A model generated the notes under the pieces. The model saw nothing but the letters and a program-made list of their open reading frames with translations. It did not search any database and was not told where the DNA came from. Both the position numbers and the translations under genes were made by a program. Positions 10,705 through 17,082 of a DNA stretch of 21,143 nucleotides are shown one piece after another. Within the stretch, counting starts at the first letter, position 1, and each line of letters opens with the position of its first letter. Origin of the DNA: a virus; the IMG/VR virus record IMGVR_UViG_3300029787_000404, positions 1 through 21,143 of that record, one strand, 5' to 3'.

Positions 10705-12909
10705 CTATTTTTTAGATGATAAAGGGTGATCACTTGGTAGCAAATCTAAATCAAATTTGCCACTTCTAAACCTTCCTGTTCTCACTGCAACAAGGAAAGC
10801 ATTCACTCTAGCATATGCCCATCTATCCTCTCCACCACTAGCACGCACGCTTGGTCTTACAGAACTTGGATTGGTACGATATGCACCAACACCTCTTCTG
10901 AATACTGCCCCTAACATTCTGACCGTAACCTTTTTACCTTTTTGATTACCATATTTTTCATTATGTTTATCTACCTTACCTTGTAGACCTTTTTTAACAG
11001 ATTCACTCAATGGCGCTTTTTCTTCAAATAATCTAACATCTTTTTTATCGACACATGCGCCTTCAATATATTCAAAATCATCTTCTTTTTCTTCTTCTCG
11101 CATTATTTGATTTCTTTTAGTTTTTGACCATGAGAAACCTGCATCACCACCCCACAAAGCCCATGCGATTCTACCTGCGCTTGGATAACCCTTTTCGCCT
11201 CTGTCAAAGCCTTCAGCTTGTTTATCTACTTCATGCCTTGAAAAGAATGAGTACATTCTTAGAACTGTATTTGGTGACATTTTTTCTTTATTGACCAATT
11301 GATTGGCTCTCGCCACACCTACTTGTGTTCCACCACGATTAAACTCTTTTCGCCATTCTAAACCTCTTTTTGCTTCTTCTGCCATGGCATCTGTACCTGT
11401 TAAATCTAAATCGCTTATGGCTTTATTGTCTCTGAGTCTTTGTTCATATTCATCATGTGTCTTGCATGGCATATACACCATTTGACCATCTTTGTTGTGT
11501 GAATGTATTCCCTGACAACCTATTTCTTCAGCACGGTCAATTGCCTCTTCTTCTGTTGTGAATGTATCTACATCAACAGCCTCTTTTGTGCCATAAATTG
11601 CATTAAAATCTTTTTGAGCACCATCAGGATCTACAGGTTTTGCATTGTCTTGATTACTAGAGCCACTAACTTCACCAATAGGAAATAAATTACTTGGTAT
11701 GTATAGATCATCACCACCTGATACTTCTTCTAAACCTAATCGTTCTCTTGCCTCATTTCTTGTCAAAATACCCGCTTGAACACCACCAACAACATTCTCG
11801 TATATTTGTTTTCTTTTTTCTGTCATTGCAGGTATTGAATCAATATCATATCTAATTGAAATATTACCTTCATACAAAGGTGATAGAAATTCGTTTAAAT
11901 CAGATTCAACTCTGTTTAAAAGAGGTATTATTGTTTCTTCATAAAGAGATAATTTAGCTGTTTCCATATTTGAATATGTATTCGCCTCTGGTATTCCTAT
12001 CAATTGTGCAGGTACACCAAATGTTAGTGCTATTTCTCTTGCAGACATATTTGCCAATTCTAAGAAATCCATATCTTTTGGCGAAAGACCTAATTGTGTA
12101 TAGTCAAAATCACCTTCAAGTAGCATTGGTCTGCCTGAATTATGGCTACCTTGAAATCTAAATTCTAAATCTTCTAATAATCTTGCTCTTTGATCATCTG
12201 TCAATTGCGTAGACATTCCTGATTCATCTGTTGGTTTGAATTTCAACATACCACTTGGTGTTGCACCATTTTTTAATAATGCAACATTATGTAGACCTGC
12301 TAGATTATGTTGGTCAATATTATATGCTGATGCCATCATTGGCGAACAACCATAGTAGTCATCAAGTGGATTCCATAGCTTTATATGTTTGACTTGTGAG
12401 AAACCATTTGTTTGATCTACTGTGTATTTTTCTTTTTCTACACCATTGATAACATAATCGTAAGATTCAGGTATTACGGTTGTACTCGGTCTTATTTGTA
12501 CCCTATCAGGTCGTAATAAATATAATTCATTTGGCATTTTGACTTGGTCTGAATCTCTAAGAATATATGTATTGCCTGAAATCATAAGAAATGAATATAA
12601 ACTTGCAAAGAATTCTATACCACTTTGTGTAGGATTAGGTCTTTTGAGCAATGAAATTAATTCATGGTTTTCGAGCTTTACATCATCATCATATACGCAT
12701 AAATCAACAGCTGATGCACTATTTGCAATTAGTTGAATACATCTGTGTACGATTGCATTGTCTGTGTAGCCTTCTTTTGCATAATCTTTGTATCTTCTTT
12801 GACCTTTTTGTGATTCAGCAGCCAATTTATTGATCATAATTTTAGGTGCTTGTTTTGTTTCTGTTGTAACTTTTTTTTCTTTTACAAAAAACTTATCAAA
12901 ATATCCCAT
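10705..12909 (-). CDS. HK97-family portal protein with two C-terminal accessory domains
   Basis: 734 residues, against roughly 400-450 for usual portals of this family. Residues 30-400 are the portal: LKRPNPTQSGIEFF (88-101), LYLLRPDRVQI (129-139), IKLWNPLDDYYGCSPM (176-191), a helical stem region, AREIALTFGVPAQLIG (290-305) and LTRNEARERLGL (382-393). Then come a GCQGIHSH/YMPCKTHDEY segment (464-488), a domain with RGLEWRKEFNRGG and GYPSAGRIAWALWGGD (about 505-600), and a last domain (about 635-734) with RMLGAVFRRGVGAYRTNP and GKFDLDLLPSDHPLSS. From memory these resemble DUF6321- and DUF5824-type domains of marine phages. The gene starts immediately after the terminase stop, with a weak AGGA site. 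Confidence 0.88.
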   Translation of the reverse strand: MGYFDKFFVKEKKVTTETKQAPKIMINKLAAESQKGQRRYKDYAKEGYTDNAIVHRCIQLIANSASAVDLCVYDDDVKLENHELISLLKRPNPTQSGIEFFASLYSFLMISGNTYILRDSDQVKMPNELYLLRPDRVQIRPSTTVIPESYDYVINGVEKEKYTVDQTNGFSQVKHIKLWNPLDDYYGCSPMMASAYNIDQHNLAGLHNVALLKNGATPSGMLKFKPTDESGMSTQLTDDQRARLLEDLEFRFQGSHNSGRPMLLEGDFDYTQLGLSPKDMDFLELANMSAREIALTFGVPAQLIGIPEANTYSNMETAKLSLYEETIIPLLNRVESDLNEFLSPLYEGNISIRYDIDSIPAMTEKRKQIYENVVGGVQAGILTRNEARERLGLEEVSGGDDLYIPSNLFPIGEVSGSSNQDNAKPVDPDGAQKDFNAIYGTKEAVDVDTFTTEEEAIDRAEEIGCQGIHSHNKDGQMVYMPCKTHDEYEQRLRDNKAISDLDLTGTDAMAEEAKRGLEWRKEFNRGGTQVGVARANQLVNKEKMSPNTVLRMYSFFSRHEVDKQAEGFDRGEKGYPSAGRIAWALWGGDAGFSWSKTKRNQIMREEEKEDDFEYIEGACVDKKDVRLFEEKAPLSESVKKGLQGKVDKHNEKYGNQKGKKVTVRMLGAVFRRGVGAYRTNPSSVRPSVRASGGEDRWAYARVNAFLVAVRTGRFRSGKFDLDLLPSDHPLSSKK

Positions 12910-14184
12910 TTAACTAATCCTAAATATTGCTTGACCTGAACTTTGTAATGAGGTTATAGCCCATACCAATGCATCAACTCTGTCATCATGTTGTGATTTT
13001 ACATTATTTCCTGTGAATTGACACATTTGTTCTTCTAAATCTTTTAATATTCCTACATGATGAACTTTATTTTGTTCATATAGTGCTGATATTGGCTCTG
13101 CTCTGATAACTTTACCTCTTGTTGCCCTAACACTTTTATAGGATATATTTTGCTCTTTTGTGCGTAAAAGTCTTTCAATCAGATCACCACCATTGTTTAC
13201 TTCTGCTACTATCCTATCGCAATCATATTGATGATACAAACTAATAGCCTTGTTTATCCATACATCAGGATTATTTATCATGCTTGAATCATTGAGAATA
13301 TAGAAATGACCTTTACTATCTCTACCTGCAACAACAATACCTGTTTCATCTGAATGGGGATTATTGGTAACTGCAGGATCAATAGCAACAACTATCCTCT
13401 CTAAGTCTGGTGTTTCTTCTACCCTTGATTTCTCAATCAAATCAATATTAAATAATGCACCTTCTATATCTTCTAAGATTTCCGCATATAATTCTTGTCT
13501 ACCTAGTCTTGTTCCCATATATCGTTCTTTTAACATTTCGATAGAAGAACTTGCAAGATTATCCATGTTTTCAAATGTTGTGCCTCTAATAACTTTTGTA
13601 TCTTTTCTTTTTGCTAATGTTTTTATAATCTTTGTTGGTCTTGGTGTTGTTGTAATAATACATTTTGGCTCTTGTCCCAATCTCAATGCCATCATCAAGT
13701 TATCAAATGACTCAGGGTATCGCCATGATGCTAATTCATCACACCATACTCTGTGAAACTGTACACCCCTTAATCTATCAGGCTCTTGTGCAGGGAAACC
13801 CATAACTTTAGAGCCATTGAAAAAGTTTATTTCGTTATTAGATTTGTTATATCCTGATTCATCAAGTAAATCTCTGTTAATGACATTCATAATTCCACTA
13901 TCACCAGTAAATACAACCCTTCTTAAATCTGAATATGTTGGTGCTACTACACCACAGGTTACATTATCATTCATCAAACAATATTGAATTATGTCATAAG
14001 CGCCACATAATGTTTTACCCCACCCACGACCACATAAAAAGAGATAGATATTATAATCAGGATCATCTACGACCAATTGGTTTGGTCTTGCTTTTTTAAT
14101 CCAATCAGTGAGTAGATTTGTTGCTATCTTCTTGCGATAGCTTAGAATCTCGTATGTCTGTGATAAGTTTTCTAAATTTATCAT
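12910..14184 (-). CDS. terL: Terminase large subunit (ATPase and nuclease)
   Basis: 424 residues. The packaging motor ATPase shows Walker A GRGWGKT (52-58), Walker B VWCDE (146-150) and a coupling motif TTTP (178-181). The C-terminal RNase H-like nuclease shows VVAIDPAVTN (265-274) with Asp269, AEVNNGGD (327-334) and HDDRVDALVWAI (399-410). This is the terminase-6/HK97-like type. The start at 14184 gives the conserved WIKKARPNQL segment ahead of Walker A but overlaps the small subunit by 80 bases and has no good ribosome site, so it may depend on coupled translation. Confidence 0.94.
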   Translation of the reverse strand: MINLENLSQTYEILSYRKKIATNLLTDWIKKARPNQLVVDDPDYNIYLFLCGRGWGKTLCGAYDIIQYCLMNDNVTCGVVAPTYSDLRRVVFTGDSGIMNVINRDLLDESGYNKSNNEINFFNGSKVMGFPAQEPDRLRGVQFHRVWCDELASWRYPESFDNLMMALRLGQEPKCIITTTPRPTKIIKTLAKRKDTKVIRGTTFENMDNLASSSIEMLKERYMGTRLGRQELYAEILEDIEGALFNIDLIEKSRVEETPDLERIVVAIDPAVTNNPHSDETGIVVAGRDSKGHFYILNDSSMINNPDVWINKAISLYHQYDCDRIVAEVNNGGDLIERLLRTKEQNISYKSVRATRGKVIRAEPISALYEQNKVHHVGILKDLEEQMCQFTGNNVKSQHDDRVDALVWAITSLQSSGQAIFRIS

Positions 14185-14488
14185 TTTCTTGTGAACTGTC
14201 TGTTACCTCAATTACATTATGTTCTTTCCAACCTGCTTGTGTTTTTAACCAAAAGATACCTGCTGTAACAGCACCATTTGATTCACTCGTAGCAATCTTG
14301 AAAAGATTATTTGCAACTTGAAAATTAGCAGTAGCTTTCCCCTCTCGTAGTTCTTCTTGGTAATATTTATACAATGTTGGTTTACTTATGCCAAGTAGAG
14401 AACATATTTGATCATGGGGTAATCCCATACCTGATGCTTTCTTTACAATCTCGCGTTTATCATCACTAATATTTACTTCTTTTGGCAT
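14105..14488 (-). CDS. terS: Terminase small subunit
   Basis: 127 residues. Residues 16-45 form a helix-turn-helix (KKASGMGLPHDQICSLLG then ISKPTLYKYYQEEL) for recognising the packaging site. AGIFWLKTQAGWKE (81-94) is a motif typical of this terminase small subunit type, followed by an acidic and basic tail that would contact the large subunit. It is directly upstream of terL and overlaps it by 80 bases. The start at 14488 has no clear ribosome site; TATAAA lies six bases before the ATG, which could be a leaderless promoter. The 28-base gap upstream holds only a weak 5-bp palindrome. Confidence 0.85.
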   Translation of the reverse strand: MPKEVNISDDKREIVKKASGMGLPHDQICSLLGISKPTLYKYYQEELREGKATANFQVANNLFKIATSESNGAVTAGIFWLKTQAGWKEHNVIEVTDSSQENDKFRKLITDIRDSKLSQEDSNKSTH

Positions 14489-14516: not shown

Positions 14517-15398
14517 TCATTTTCTTTTTAATTTAAGACCATAATTATTATTATTTTCACTAAATGTCAATCCTTTCTTCAAGATCAACTTGTTTTGTTT
14601 CTTAAATTTTCTGTAATTAACCATATGATGCCATCTGCCATACTTCATTTTAAGATCAGAGCAATCAGGGTGAGCTTTAACTAGCATTTGAGATTTAGGC
14701 AAAGTGCCTTCTTTTTCATAGAATTCTTTGGTATTACCACCTTTTAATGTTTGTGTTCTTGCTTTGTGTTGAAGAAATACATTGAATTGCACAGTACACC
14801 AACCTTTTTTTAGCATATCTAGTGATAATATTGTGTCTTCGTTATACCTACCTCTCCATCTAAAAGGTATATCGTTTCTTATAAGGTTACAGCTATATAT
14901 TCTGGTATTAATTGTGAATGGTCCATAATCGGCACCTGCATTATCTACAACAAAAAATGCATAGTTAGGTCCCGCCATGCCTATATTCTTATAGCGTAGA
15001 CAAAAGTCTTCCATAACACGCCACATGACACCAGATTTGCAATCAATTCTCTTGTTATGTTGAAATCGTTTGAACTTATGAATGTTATCGTCCATAACCC
15101 AATGCCATTTGTAGCCTTCTGACATAGAATGTTCCCATATGAAGTTTCTAGCACCACCTGGTCCTTTAGATTTTTTATATTCAAGATCATCAAGTGTGTC
15201 GTATTCATCTTGATATCTTTTATCAAGAACTAATAATTTAGATTTATCTACATATCTACAATATTTTATATATTCTTGTTCTTCTATGACTAATTTGTAT
15301 GGTACTTTTTGTTCTTCTAAGGCATCAGCTGTCAATCTTTGTTCGTATCTTCCTTTTGTTGGTATGTAGAGTGGGAATTGTGGTAGAAGATCACTCAT
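14517..15398 (-). CDS. TET-associated-type glycosyltransferase (TAGT)
   Basis: 293 residues of the TAGT family, which is predicted to glycosylate oxidised (hydroxymethyl) bases in phage DNA and is related to the GREB1 C-terminal domain. Motifs: PLYIPTKGR (9-17), VPYKLVIEEQEY (32-43), GPGGARNFIWEH (79-90), WHWVMDDNIHKF (98-109) with the DD metal and sugar-nucleotide motif, GMAGPNYAFF (140-149), INTRIYSCNLIRNDIPFRWR (163-182), GRYNEDT (183-189) and LKGGNT (218-223). It overlaps ParB by 8 bases at the start. No TET/JBP dioxygenase or hydroxymethylase is in the window, so the modified base would have to be made elsewhere. All expected motifs appear intact. Confidence 0.86.
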   Translation of the reverse strand: MSDLLPQFPLYIPTKGRYEQRLTADALEEQKVPYKLVIEEQEYIKYCRYVDKSKLLVLDKRYQDEYDTLDDLEYKKSKGPGGARNFIWEHSMSEGYKWHWVMDDNIHKFKRFQHNKRIDCKSGVMWRVMEDFCLRYKNIGMAGPNYAFFVVDNAGADYGPFTINTRIYSCNLIRNDIPFRWRGRYNEDTILSLDMLKKGWCTVQFNVFLQHKARTQTLKGGNTKEFYEKEGTLPKSQMLVKAHPDCSDLKMKYGRWHHMVNYRKFKKQNKLILKKGLTFSENNNNYGLKLKRK

Positions 15399-16014
15399 AT
15401 GTTTTGTCTTTCAATACCCTTTGTGGTCGTTCATTGAAATAGATTGTTTTGGTCTTATCTGTAACAGATTGGTTAATTAACTGTGCAAATTCTCTCACTT
15501 GTTCATCATTGTCGAAGTGTAAATATATCGTTCTGTATGGTTTATTATCATCATGGTCAAAATCTGGCATTTCTTTCCAATGTTCTTTTGCCATATCTGA
15601 ATCAAAGTATGTCTCATCACCTTGAAATGTGATCATGTTTTCAAGTTCTTTTTCTTCAAAACCAAGACTATCAAGATCAAAGTTTGAATCTAACAAATCA
15701 CCAAATTCTTTGTTAAGTTTTGGAAAGTCCCAATCTGAATCTTGATTTGTTCTATTGTCTGCTATCCTGTATGCCTTTACATCTTCTGCACTCATATTCT
15801 CTGCTACAAGAACAGGTATTTTTTGAAGATTGAGCTGTTTTGATGCCTCGTATCTTGAATGACCAACAATAATAACATTCTGTGTATCTACAACAATCGG
15901 TTGTTGAAATCCGAATTTTTTTATAGATTCTGCTACTTTTGTTACGTTATTTTTTATGCGTGGATTATTTTCATATGGTACTATTTCTTTTATATCTTTA
16001 AGAAGTATATTCAT
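15391..16014 (-). CDS. ParB/Srx-fold protein
   Basis: 207 residues. The N-terminal ParB domain (1-75) has the pattern DIKEIVPYENNPRIKN, QQPIVVD, VIIVGHSRYEASKQL (47-61, GHSR being the nucleotide-binding box) and LQKIPVLV. Residues 76-95 (AEDVKAYRIADNRTNQ) extend it. A C-terminal part (160-195) with YLHFDNDEQVREFAQLI and TDKTKTIYF is known in phage ParB relatives. Phage ParB-like proteins are often next to DNA-modifying enzymes and terminase genes; here the partner is TAGT. It has no methylase domain. The ATG overlaps the membrane-protein stop (ATGA). It may mark or nick DNA for modification or packaging; partition is unlikely because no ParA is seen. Confidence 0.83.
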   Translation of the reverse strand: MNILLKDIKEIVPYENNPRIKNNVTKVAESIKKFGFQQPIVVDTQNVIIVGHSRYEASKQLNLQKIPVLVAENMSAEDVKAYRIADNRTNQDSDWDFPKLNKEFGDLLDSNFDLDSLGFEEKELENMITFQGDETYFDSDMAKEHWKEMPDFDHDDNKPYRTIYLHFDNDEQVREFAQLINQSVTDKTKTIYFNERPQRVLKDKTYE

Positions 16015-16232
16015 ATGGAATTTAATATACCACTAATGAGTATAATAACACCAATAAAATTAACAAAAATCAGTGGTTTATCGTTTAGAATGTAAGCAAC
16101 GATCAACCAACCTAGTATGCCAAATAACTGAATATATAAATTTAATGGGAATATATTGTATGCTGTCAAACATAAACCGAATGTTAATATTATAGAACTA
16201 AGCCATTTAATATTTTCTGTGTTTTTTATCAA
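16011..16232 (-). CDS. Small three-helix membrane protein
   Basis: 73 residues from a TTG start at 16232 (MIKNTENIKWLSS). A longer version from GTG at 16286 is possible but would overlap the helicase gene by 80 bases. Three membrane helices are plain: WLSSIILTFGLCLTAYN, LYIQLFGILGWLIVAYIL and FVNFIGVIILISGIL. The PLNLYIQLFG...WL pattern resembles small phage and bacterial membrane proteins related to part of PnuC-like transporters. The stop overlaps the ParB start (ATGA). A holin role is possible but nothing specific supports it. Confidence 0.65.
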   Translation of the reverse strand: MIKNTENIKWLSSIILTFGLCLTAYNIFPLNLYIQLFGILGWLIVAYILNDKPLIFVNFIGVIILISGILNSI

Positions 16233-17082
16233 AGTCTTGTACTGTATGAAATGATCTACTCTGTCCTGACCATTTGAGAGTAACACTTCCTATGTTTCCA
16301 TACAAATCAAGTTCTCTTACCTTAGCAATTCTTACTTCAGTCTGTCCTAGTTCAAAATCTCTTGTTACAATCACGCCGATATCTGCTTTATTGTTAAAAT
16401 GAGAACTTCCTGATATAGAATACAAACTATCTACGACAAATTTACCATCAGGATTTCTTATTTGTTTGTTAGGGTGTGCTACCAAGAAACTCATGCTTTC
16501 TGTTTCTCTGTTGAATCTTTTAATTTTTGAAATAACAACTGATATATGCTCATCTTCTCTTAAAATGGTACGATTAGGGTTTATCTCGTTGTATGGATCA
16601 ATAATTAATGCATCAATTCCTAGTTCATTTGCACAAAAATAGGCTTTTTCAAGAATCCAATCAATATCAGGACTATCTGATTTCTTATCAATGAACCAAA
16701 AATGCTTGTCTATAAAGACCAATGCTTGTCCTAGTTCTACTTCTGACATTCTATTTGTAAACATCTTATCAAATGGTTTTTTCGTATATTTTTCAATTAA
16801 TCTTTTCACATTCATAGCAAGAGAATGTTCAGGACTGAAAATGACAAATTTGAAACCATCAGAAATTGCTAGATTCATTGCTATATCATAACTTAATGAA
16901 CTTTTACCACTGTTTGGTGTACCTGTGATCACAGTAAAGCAAGGTTTTACAATCTTCCAATACTTATCTAAGGTTTCAAAACCAGTAGAATACTGTTTAT
17001 GAGACTTTCCATTGTATAAATCTAATACAGAATCGTAGAGATCATTCGCTGTATATATACCATCAGTCTTTTTTTCTACCAT
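16207..17082 (-). CDS. RecA-fold replicative helicase (DnaB/Twinkle-like, no primase domain)
   Basis: 291 residues. Walker A is GTPNSGKSS (54-62), Walker B ALIIDPYNEI (158-167), sensor VAHPNKQ (201-207) and SGSSHFNNKADIGV (224-237), then RIAKVRELDLYG (251-262). The last two segments resemble the C-terminal helicase part of T7 gp4 and Twinkle. The N-terminal 30 residues are too short for a primase or DnaB N-terminal domain, so primers must come from elsewhere. It probably unwinds the phage replication fork. The start at 17082 has a GGGG tract about 8 bases upstream and follows the winged-helix gene by three bases. Confidence 0.85.
   Translation of the reverse strand: MVEKKTDGIYTANDLYDSVLDLYNGKSHKQYSTGFETLDKYWKIVKPCFTVITGTPNSGKSSLSYDIAMNLAISDGFKFVIFSPEHSLAMNVKRLIEKYTKKPFDKMFTNRMSEVELGQALVFIDKHFWFIDKKSDSPDIDWILEKAYFCANELGIDALIIDPYNEINPNRTILREDEHISVVISKIKRFNRETESMSFLVAHPNKQIRNPDGKFVVDSLYSISGSSHFNNKADIGVIVTRDFELGQTEVRIAKVRELDLYGNIGSVTLKWSGQSRSFHTVQDFDKKHRKY

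Follow-up and report, generated by a model that had tools for sequence, protein, structure and literature searches.

An orphan TAGT glycosyltransferase linked to a ParB-like protein ahead of the phage terminase: a predicted DNA-glycosylation cassette from a TET-less lineage

What does a TET-associated glycosyltransferase (TAGT) modify if no enzyme that would prepare a base for it is encoded nearby? Those DNA-acting TAGT relatives whose acceptor is known, such as the enzymes of phage TET systems and of kinetoplastid base J synthesis, use hydroxymethylpyrimidines, or sugars already joined to these, as acceptors. A TAGT gene in a linear IMG/VR fragment of 21,143 nt from a marine phage (the window, by which we mean the whole stretch of DNA analyzed) raises this question; it lies between a ParB-like gene and the terminase genes.

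RESULTS

TAGT and ParB-like genes upstream of the terminase

The gene order in the window is ParB-TAGT-TerS-TerL, with the following features:

15391..16014 (-), ParB_N/sulfiredoxin-fold protein, 207 aa (ParB_N PF02195, 8e-9)
15391..15603 (-), C-terminal TAGT-partner domain of the ParB-like protein, residues ~138-207, with the pattern WxxMPxF...TxKTKxIWFP
14517..15398 (-), TAGT glycosyltransferase, 293 aa (PF20691), GT-A type fold
14105..14488 (-), TerS, terminase small subunit (phrog_309, 4e-19), next gene downstream of TAGT
12910..14184 (-), TerL, terminase large subunit (PF03237 and PF17289)

The TAGT matches PF20691 (TET-associated glycosyltransferase) at 135 bits (E=4e-39) over profile positions 1-204 of 205, that is, across the whole domain and above the curated cutoff of 27.5 bits. 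Its glycosyltransferase motifs, which the original prediction had described as intact, are indeed so: MDDN (residues 102-105), RYNEDT (184-189), and GGN (220-222) are invariant in the 42 relatives aligned, with DDN and NEDT constituting the DxD-type metal site and the ED catalytic motif. Foldseek searches with an AlphaFold2 model (pLDDT 88) retrieved GT-A enzymes as the best matches, with E values down to 2e-5 at modest TM scores of 0.3-0.5, and a sequence search found no similar solved structure. The gene is under purifying selection, its dN/dS against the sister contig G002 (see below) being 0.10, compared with 0.06-0.10 for the capsid, helicase, and terminase genes.

The overlap of 8 bases between the ParB and TAGT ORFs, also part of the original prediction, is exact (junction ACA TAT GAG TGA / ATG AGT GAT), and both terminase subunits follow as claimed. 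Foldseek matched the ParB-like protein to the CTP-binding Noc/ParB/KorB proteins at E~1e-6 and also to sulfiredoxin and a serine kinase. Judged by eye, GHSR at residues 51-54 replaces the canonical GERR CTP-binding box. Pfam found no HTH in the protein, and no ParA match was found among the window ORFs scanned, a subset of all ORFs. In 70 of 79 TAGT loci, TAGT is preceded by ParB or the ParB C-terminal domain, the remainder mostly ending at contig edges, and this linkage spans Pseudomonadota, Bacteroidota, Acidobacteriota, Actinomycetota, and Verrucomicrobiota.

Other window genes include a small DUF6552 protein (16011-16286) between the helicase and ParB genes, whose listed GTG start is inside the helicase gene; a portal-position protein (10705-12909) of 734 aa, versus ~470-480 aa in many relatives, with an extra C-terminal region; and, among the head genes, a Ref-like RecA-dependent nuclease (PF16786; 9104-9394).

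A TAGT-partner domain in three arrangements

The C-terminal domain of the ParB-like protein, ~60-70 aa long, has no Pfam match and is poorly modelled in the ParB structure prediction. It occurs in three ways: on ParB, as a free ORF of 82-108 aa directly 5' of TAGT, and fused to TAGT, where it corresponds to the N-terminal extension of the enzymes of Aeh1, phage 65, POP12, PTm1, Kuja, and Vibrio phages. A profile comparison of the ParB C terminus with the fused extension by hhalign gave a probability of 99.3% (E 3e-20), while single-profile matches are weak for phage 65 and two small Vibrio phages. A fusion of ParB_N itself to TAGT in the Aeromonas/Vibrio phages was considered and rejected: Pfam finds no ParB_N there, and the common part is the ParB C-terminal domain.

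The partner domain is nearly exclusive to window-type TAGTs. A scan with the domain alone retrieved 88 loci with a domain ORF, of which 86 have a TAGT at most three genes away and 82 have it adjacent; the two loci with no nearby TAGT both carry a methyltransferase resembling those that are fused to TAGT in L031 and interposed between ParB and TAGT in L050. The partner-domain profile does not match the ParBs that occur with Mom or methylases (see below). The linkage and the fusion together suggest that ParB and TAGT make contact, and we predict that the ParB-like protein is a partner or loader of TAGT.

Several relatives have additional genes in the cassette. L031:2615-4294 codes for a 559-aa TAGT with a C-terminal SAM methyltransferase; L050, L053, and L054 have a similar methyltransferase as a gene of its own, located between ParB and TAGT, and in L372 and L375 such an enzyme follows ParB with no TAGT. 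An FkbM methyltransferase is interposed between ParB and TAGT in L009. The same position holds a putative 2OG-Fe(II) oxygenase in two loci only (L035:9455-10000 and L040:9460-9999); this insert is named ferrochelatase in PHROGs (phrog_2954) and cyanophage records, the oxygenase reading coming from a motif and one annotated homologue. An interposed FkbM methyltransferase or oxygenase would be expected if a sugar-bearing product were tailored further. L151:9953-11868 has one ParB followed by two tandem TAGT genes, and Vibrio phage Kuja likewise has two TAGTs.

Search for a base-making partner

That no base-oxidizing partner is encoded in the 21 kb, as first noticed by inspection, agrees with our profile searches, in which the window gave no match to Tet_JBP (PF12851), the thymidylate synthase (TS) family (PF00303), or PF13640 (2OG-FeII_Oxy_3); PF00303 and PF12851 are blind to an unrelated hydroxylase. 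A further TET profile, derived from the phage enzymes, likewise found nothing in any frame of the window or in G002. That PF12851 does detect TET in positive controls (beside TAGT in a Winogradskyella genome, at 85.9 bits, and in the L244, L255, and L257 records) shows that the model is not at fault.

As the record is a linear fragment, we tested the absence on relatives. IMG/VR contig G002 (identity to the window of 78% for TAGT, 86% for ParB, and 92% for TerL) matches the window genes in order over the whole window length and is ~10.5 kb longer. The 528 nt at its start are repeated at its far end with 97.9% identity, which indicates a genome of ~31.6 kb that is closed or circularly permuted. 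The genes beyond the window code for tape measure, head-tail connector, tail, and membrane proteins, for further structural proteins, and for small unknown ones. The suggested search of the rest of the genome for TET/JBP and TS-like hydroxymethylases, carried out on this sister, came back empty, as did one with PF13640; it is accordingly unlikely that, as one of the original suggestions has it, the enzyme making the base resides in another part of the genome. Neither the window nor G002 has a recognizable DNA polymerase or nucleotide-modifying enzyme.

Five further contigs with terminal overlaps (G014, G019, G024, G030, and G039) gave no Tet_JBP or TS match, and G014 has one PF13640 oxygenase. 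Away from the TAGT cassette, 2OG-Fe(II) oxygenases are present in G012, G014, G015, and G035; the weak Tet_JBP match of G035 (14.8 bits) was rejected as a TET, being a generic 2OG-Fe(II) oxygenase. TET was not found on window-lineage contigs of up to 51 kb. Isolates of Erwinia, Pantoea, Chryseobacterium, Acidobacteriaceae, Rhodovulum, and Xenophilus carry prophage forms in their genomes. In eight isolate host genomes of this kind TET is absent and no more than a single TS is present, with a score (~430 bits) to be expected of a host ThyA. The absence of the partner is therefore probably not an effect of fragment ends.

TET-coupled and TET-less TAGT lineages

TET is present in 0 of 80 retrieved loci of the window lineage, in 0 of 42 of the L235-type lineage, and in 38 of 39 of a third lineage; the loci are not independent (at 90% identity they form ~23, 25, and 15 clusters, respectively), and a few short or divergent loci are uncounted. 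In those 38 loci TET is directly downstream of TAGT, in the order ParB-TAGT-TET-TerS-TerL, and the genes overlap in L255 and L257. In the L235-type lineage ParB-TAGT is followed by a small ORF and then a TerL-sized ORF. The window lineage is systematically TET-less, and this phage is hence no exception.

T6 ggt, whose gene adjoins gene 42 (dCMP hydroxymethylase), also matches PF20691 (36 bits), so TET is not a fixed companion of the family; because of long branches, it is unsure where in the tree T6 ggt and the TET-coupled TAGTs belong. The premise that TAGTs pair with TET/JBP or a hydroxymethylase thus holds for the third lineage and T6 but fails, as regards TET, for that of the window.

An exchangeable slot for DNA modifiers

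We also scanned for proteins related to the Psychrobacter phage Y8A ParB, regardless of the neighboring gene. Among the 80 loci, the next overlapping gene or fused domain is an N6/N4 MTase fused to ParB (33 loci), Mom (21), TAGT (7, plus 1 truncated), a C5-MTase (5), ABC-GNAT (4), or TET (1), with representatives confirmed by Pfam. TerS comes next in many of these loci, and TerL after it in those read further. The slot occupied by TAGT is thus a place for enzymes acting on DNA bases, and ParB is a partner common to many DNA modifiers; this interchangeability argues that TAGT modifies DNA.

Two of the slot genes merit separate mention. The Mom of Y8A (L148:5581-6234; PF25680, 188 bits), which overlaps ParB, is annotated only as hypothetical, and the gene given as Mom in the published genome is another one, ORF69 (PMC10434257). 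The ABC-ATPase-GNAT fusion directly after ParB in L220:1333-2400 is possibly the uncharacterized acyl-type DNA modifier mentioned in PMC7824862.

DISCUSSION

Predicted mechanism

We propose, with a probability of roughly two in three, that ParB-TAGT is an in situ DNA-glycosylation cassette ahead of the terminase, acting on an acceptor that no known phage hydroxylase provides. The ParB-like protein would bring TAGT to DNA, or regulate it there, via the TAGT-specific C-terminal domain. The GT-A enzyme would then move a sugar from a host NDP-sugar, probably a UDP-sugar, onto phage DNA; T-even phages draw on host UDP-glucose (PMC2993671). Given the gene order ahead of the terminase, the DNA might be modified after replication, perhaps late and close to packaging, and the lack of a recognizable DNA polymerase or nucleotide-modifying enzyme in the window and G002 fits modification in situ better than the use of premodified nucleotides. 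The acceptor could be a base supplied by an unrecognized or host enzyme or an unmodified base attacked directly. The latter version, in which TAGT and the partner domain would put the sugar onto, e.g., an exocyclic amine with no hydroxymethyl precursor, is a tentative and rather unlikely one, likened to Mom, which occupies the same genomic slot. The Mom family modifies plain adenine.

Alternative explanations

The alternative that survives best, which we regard as a serious contender though short of probable, is that the acceptor is a hydroxylated base from a host enzyme or an unrecognized phage hydroxylase that is unlinked or present in some members only. The acceptor of T6 ggt, a hydroxymethylpyrimidine or a sugar attached to one (PMC2993671), is a precedent, and 2OG-Fe(II) oxygenases do occur in some relatives, including those between ParB and TAGT in L035 and L040. 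However, no candidate is common to the lineage, and the eight prophage-bearing host genomes have no TET and no more than one ThyA-like TS.

It is improbable that the acceptor is not DNA at all but a protein (capsid, terminase, or host factor) or another molecule. The human homologue GREB1, which PMC6163654 assigns to the TAGTs, reportedly O-GlcNAcylates the estrogen receptor (PMC10908778, citing Shin 2021), and marine phage glycosyltransferases may target the host O-antigen (PMC7029224). Against this, the slot holds DNA-base enzymes in related phages, T6 ggt, the biochemically known phage member of the family, acts on DNA (PMC2993671), and no O-antigen genes were seen around TAGT.

A base-making enzyme in the part of the genome missing from the 21-kb fragment would be in keeping with a linear record and a sister ~10.5 kb longer, but it is very unlikely in light of the extra genes of the closed, colinear G002, the 0 of 80 lineage loci with TET, and its absence from the longer contigs and isolate genomes. 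Decay of TAGT as what is left of an earlier TAGT-TET pair, as the presence of TET in a sister lineage and its absence here might suggest, is scarcely credible, being contradicted by the dN/dS, the invariant catalytic residues in 42 sequences, and the ParB linkage kept across phyla.

Significance

Orphan TAGTs are already known in T4-like phages. We add to this that a wide lineage is systematically without TET, down to a closed genome, that a partner domain occurs in three arrangements, and that the slot is exchangeable; no earlier description of these points was found in the literature searched, with Iyer et al. 2013 outside that search. TAGTs thus split into TET-coupled and TET-less lineages using one genomic slot, and the orphan TAGT is the rule in a widespread group rather than an accident of fragmentation. 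The partner domain, whether on ParB, alone, or fused, offers a testable partner of TAGT, and the ParB-modifier-terminase slot is a handle for discovering new phage DNA modifications. If TAGT did work on unmodified DNA, this would be a new route for sugars onto DNA.

Comparison with known systems

The T2/T6 beta-glucosyl-HMC-alpha-glucosyltransferase (ggt, beta-alpha-gt) is a member of PF20691, and its catalytic motifs align with those of the window TAGT. However, it is very divergent, has no ParB, and acts on glucosylated hydroxymethylcytosine dependent on the adjacent gene 42, whereas no TS-family dCMP hydroxymethylase was found in the window or G002.

The enzymes of Aeromonas phages Aeh1 and 65 are closer, with 53 and 49% identity, respectively, to the window TAGT. 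Both phages are without the gene 42 hydroxymethylase (PMC2993671), just as the window is without a dCMP hydroxymethylase, and a 2021 review citing Iyer et al. 2013 states that the Aeh1 enzyme (Aeh1ORF087c) "presumably modifies DNA, unknown base" (PMC8056088). They differ in having the ParB C-terminal domain fused to TAGT, with no ParB_N found, and in a T4-like genome not arranged as ParB-TAGT-TerS-TerL.

The ParB-TAGT-TET-TerS-TerL cassettes (IMG/VR L255, L257, and L265-L303) share the order around the terminase, ParB_N directly upstream, and a PF20691 TAGT. In contrast, their TAGTs are shorter (241-243 aa) and distant, the ParBs of L255 and L257 do not match the window-type C-terminal domain profile, and TET/JBP is directly downstream, whereas no TET/JBP was found in the window, the closed sister, or the 80 lineage loci. 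In Psychrobacter phage vB_PmaS_Y8A (PMC10434257) the modifier is Mom (PF25680, E=2e-55; assigned in the present analysis) and the ParB C terminus is unlike that of the window, but the architecture is the same: ParB overlaps a DNA modifier by 8 nt, followed by TerS and TerL.
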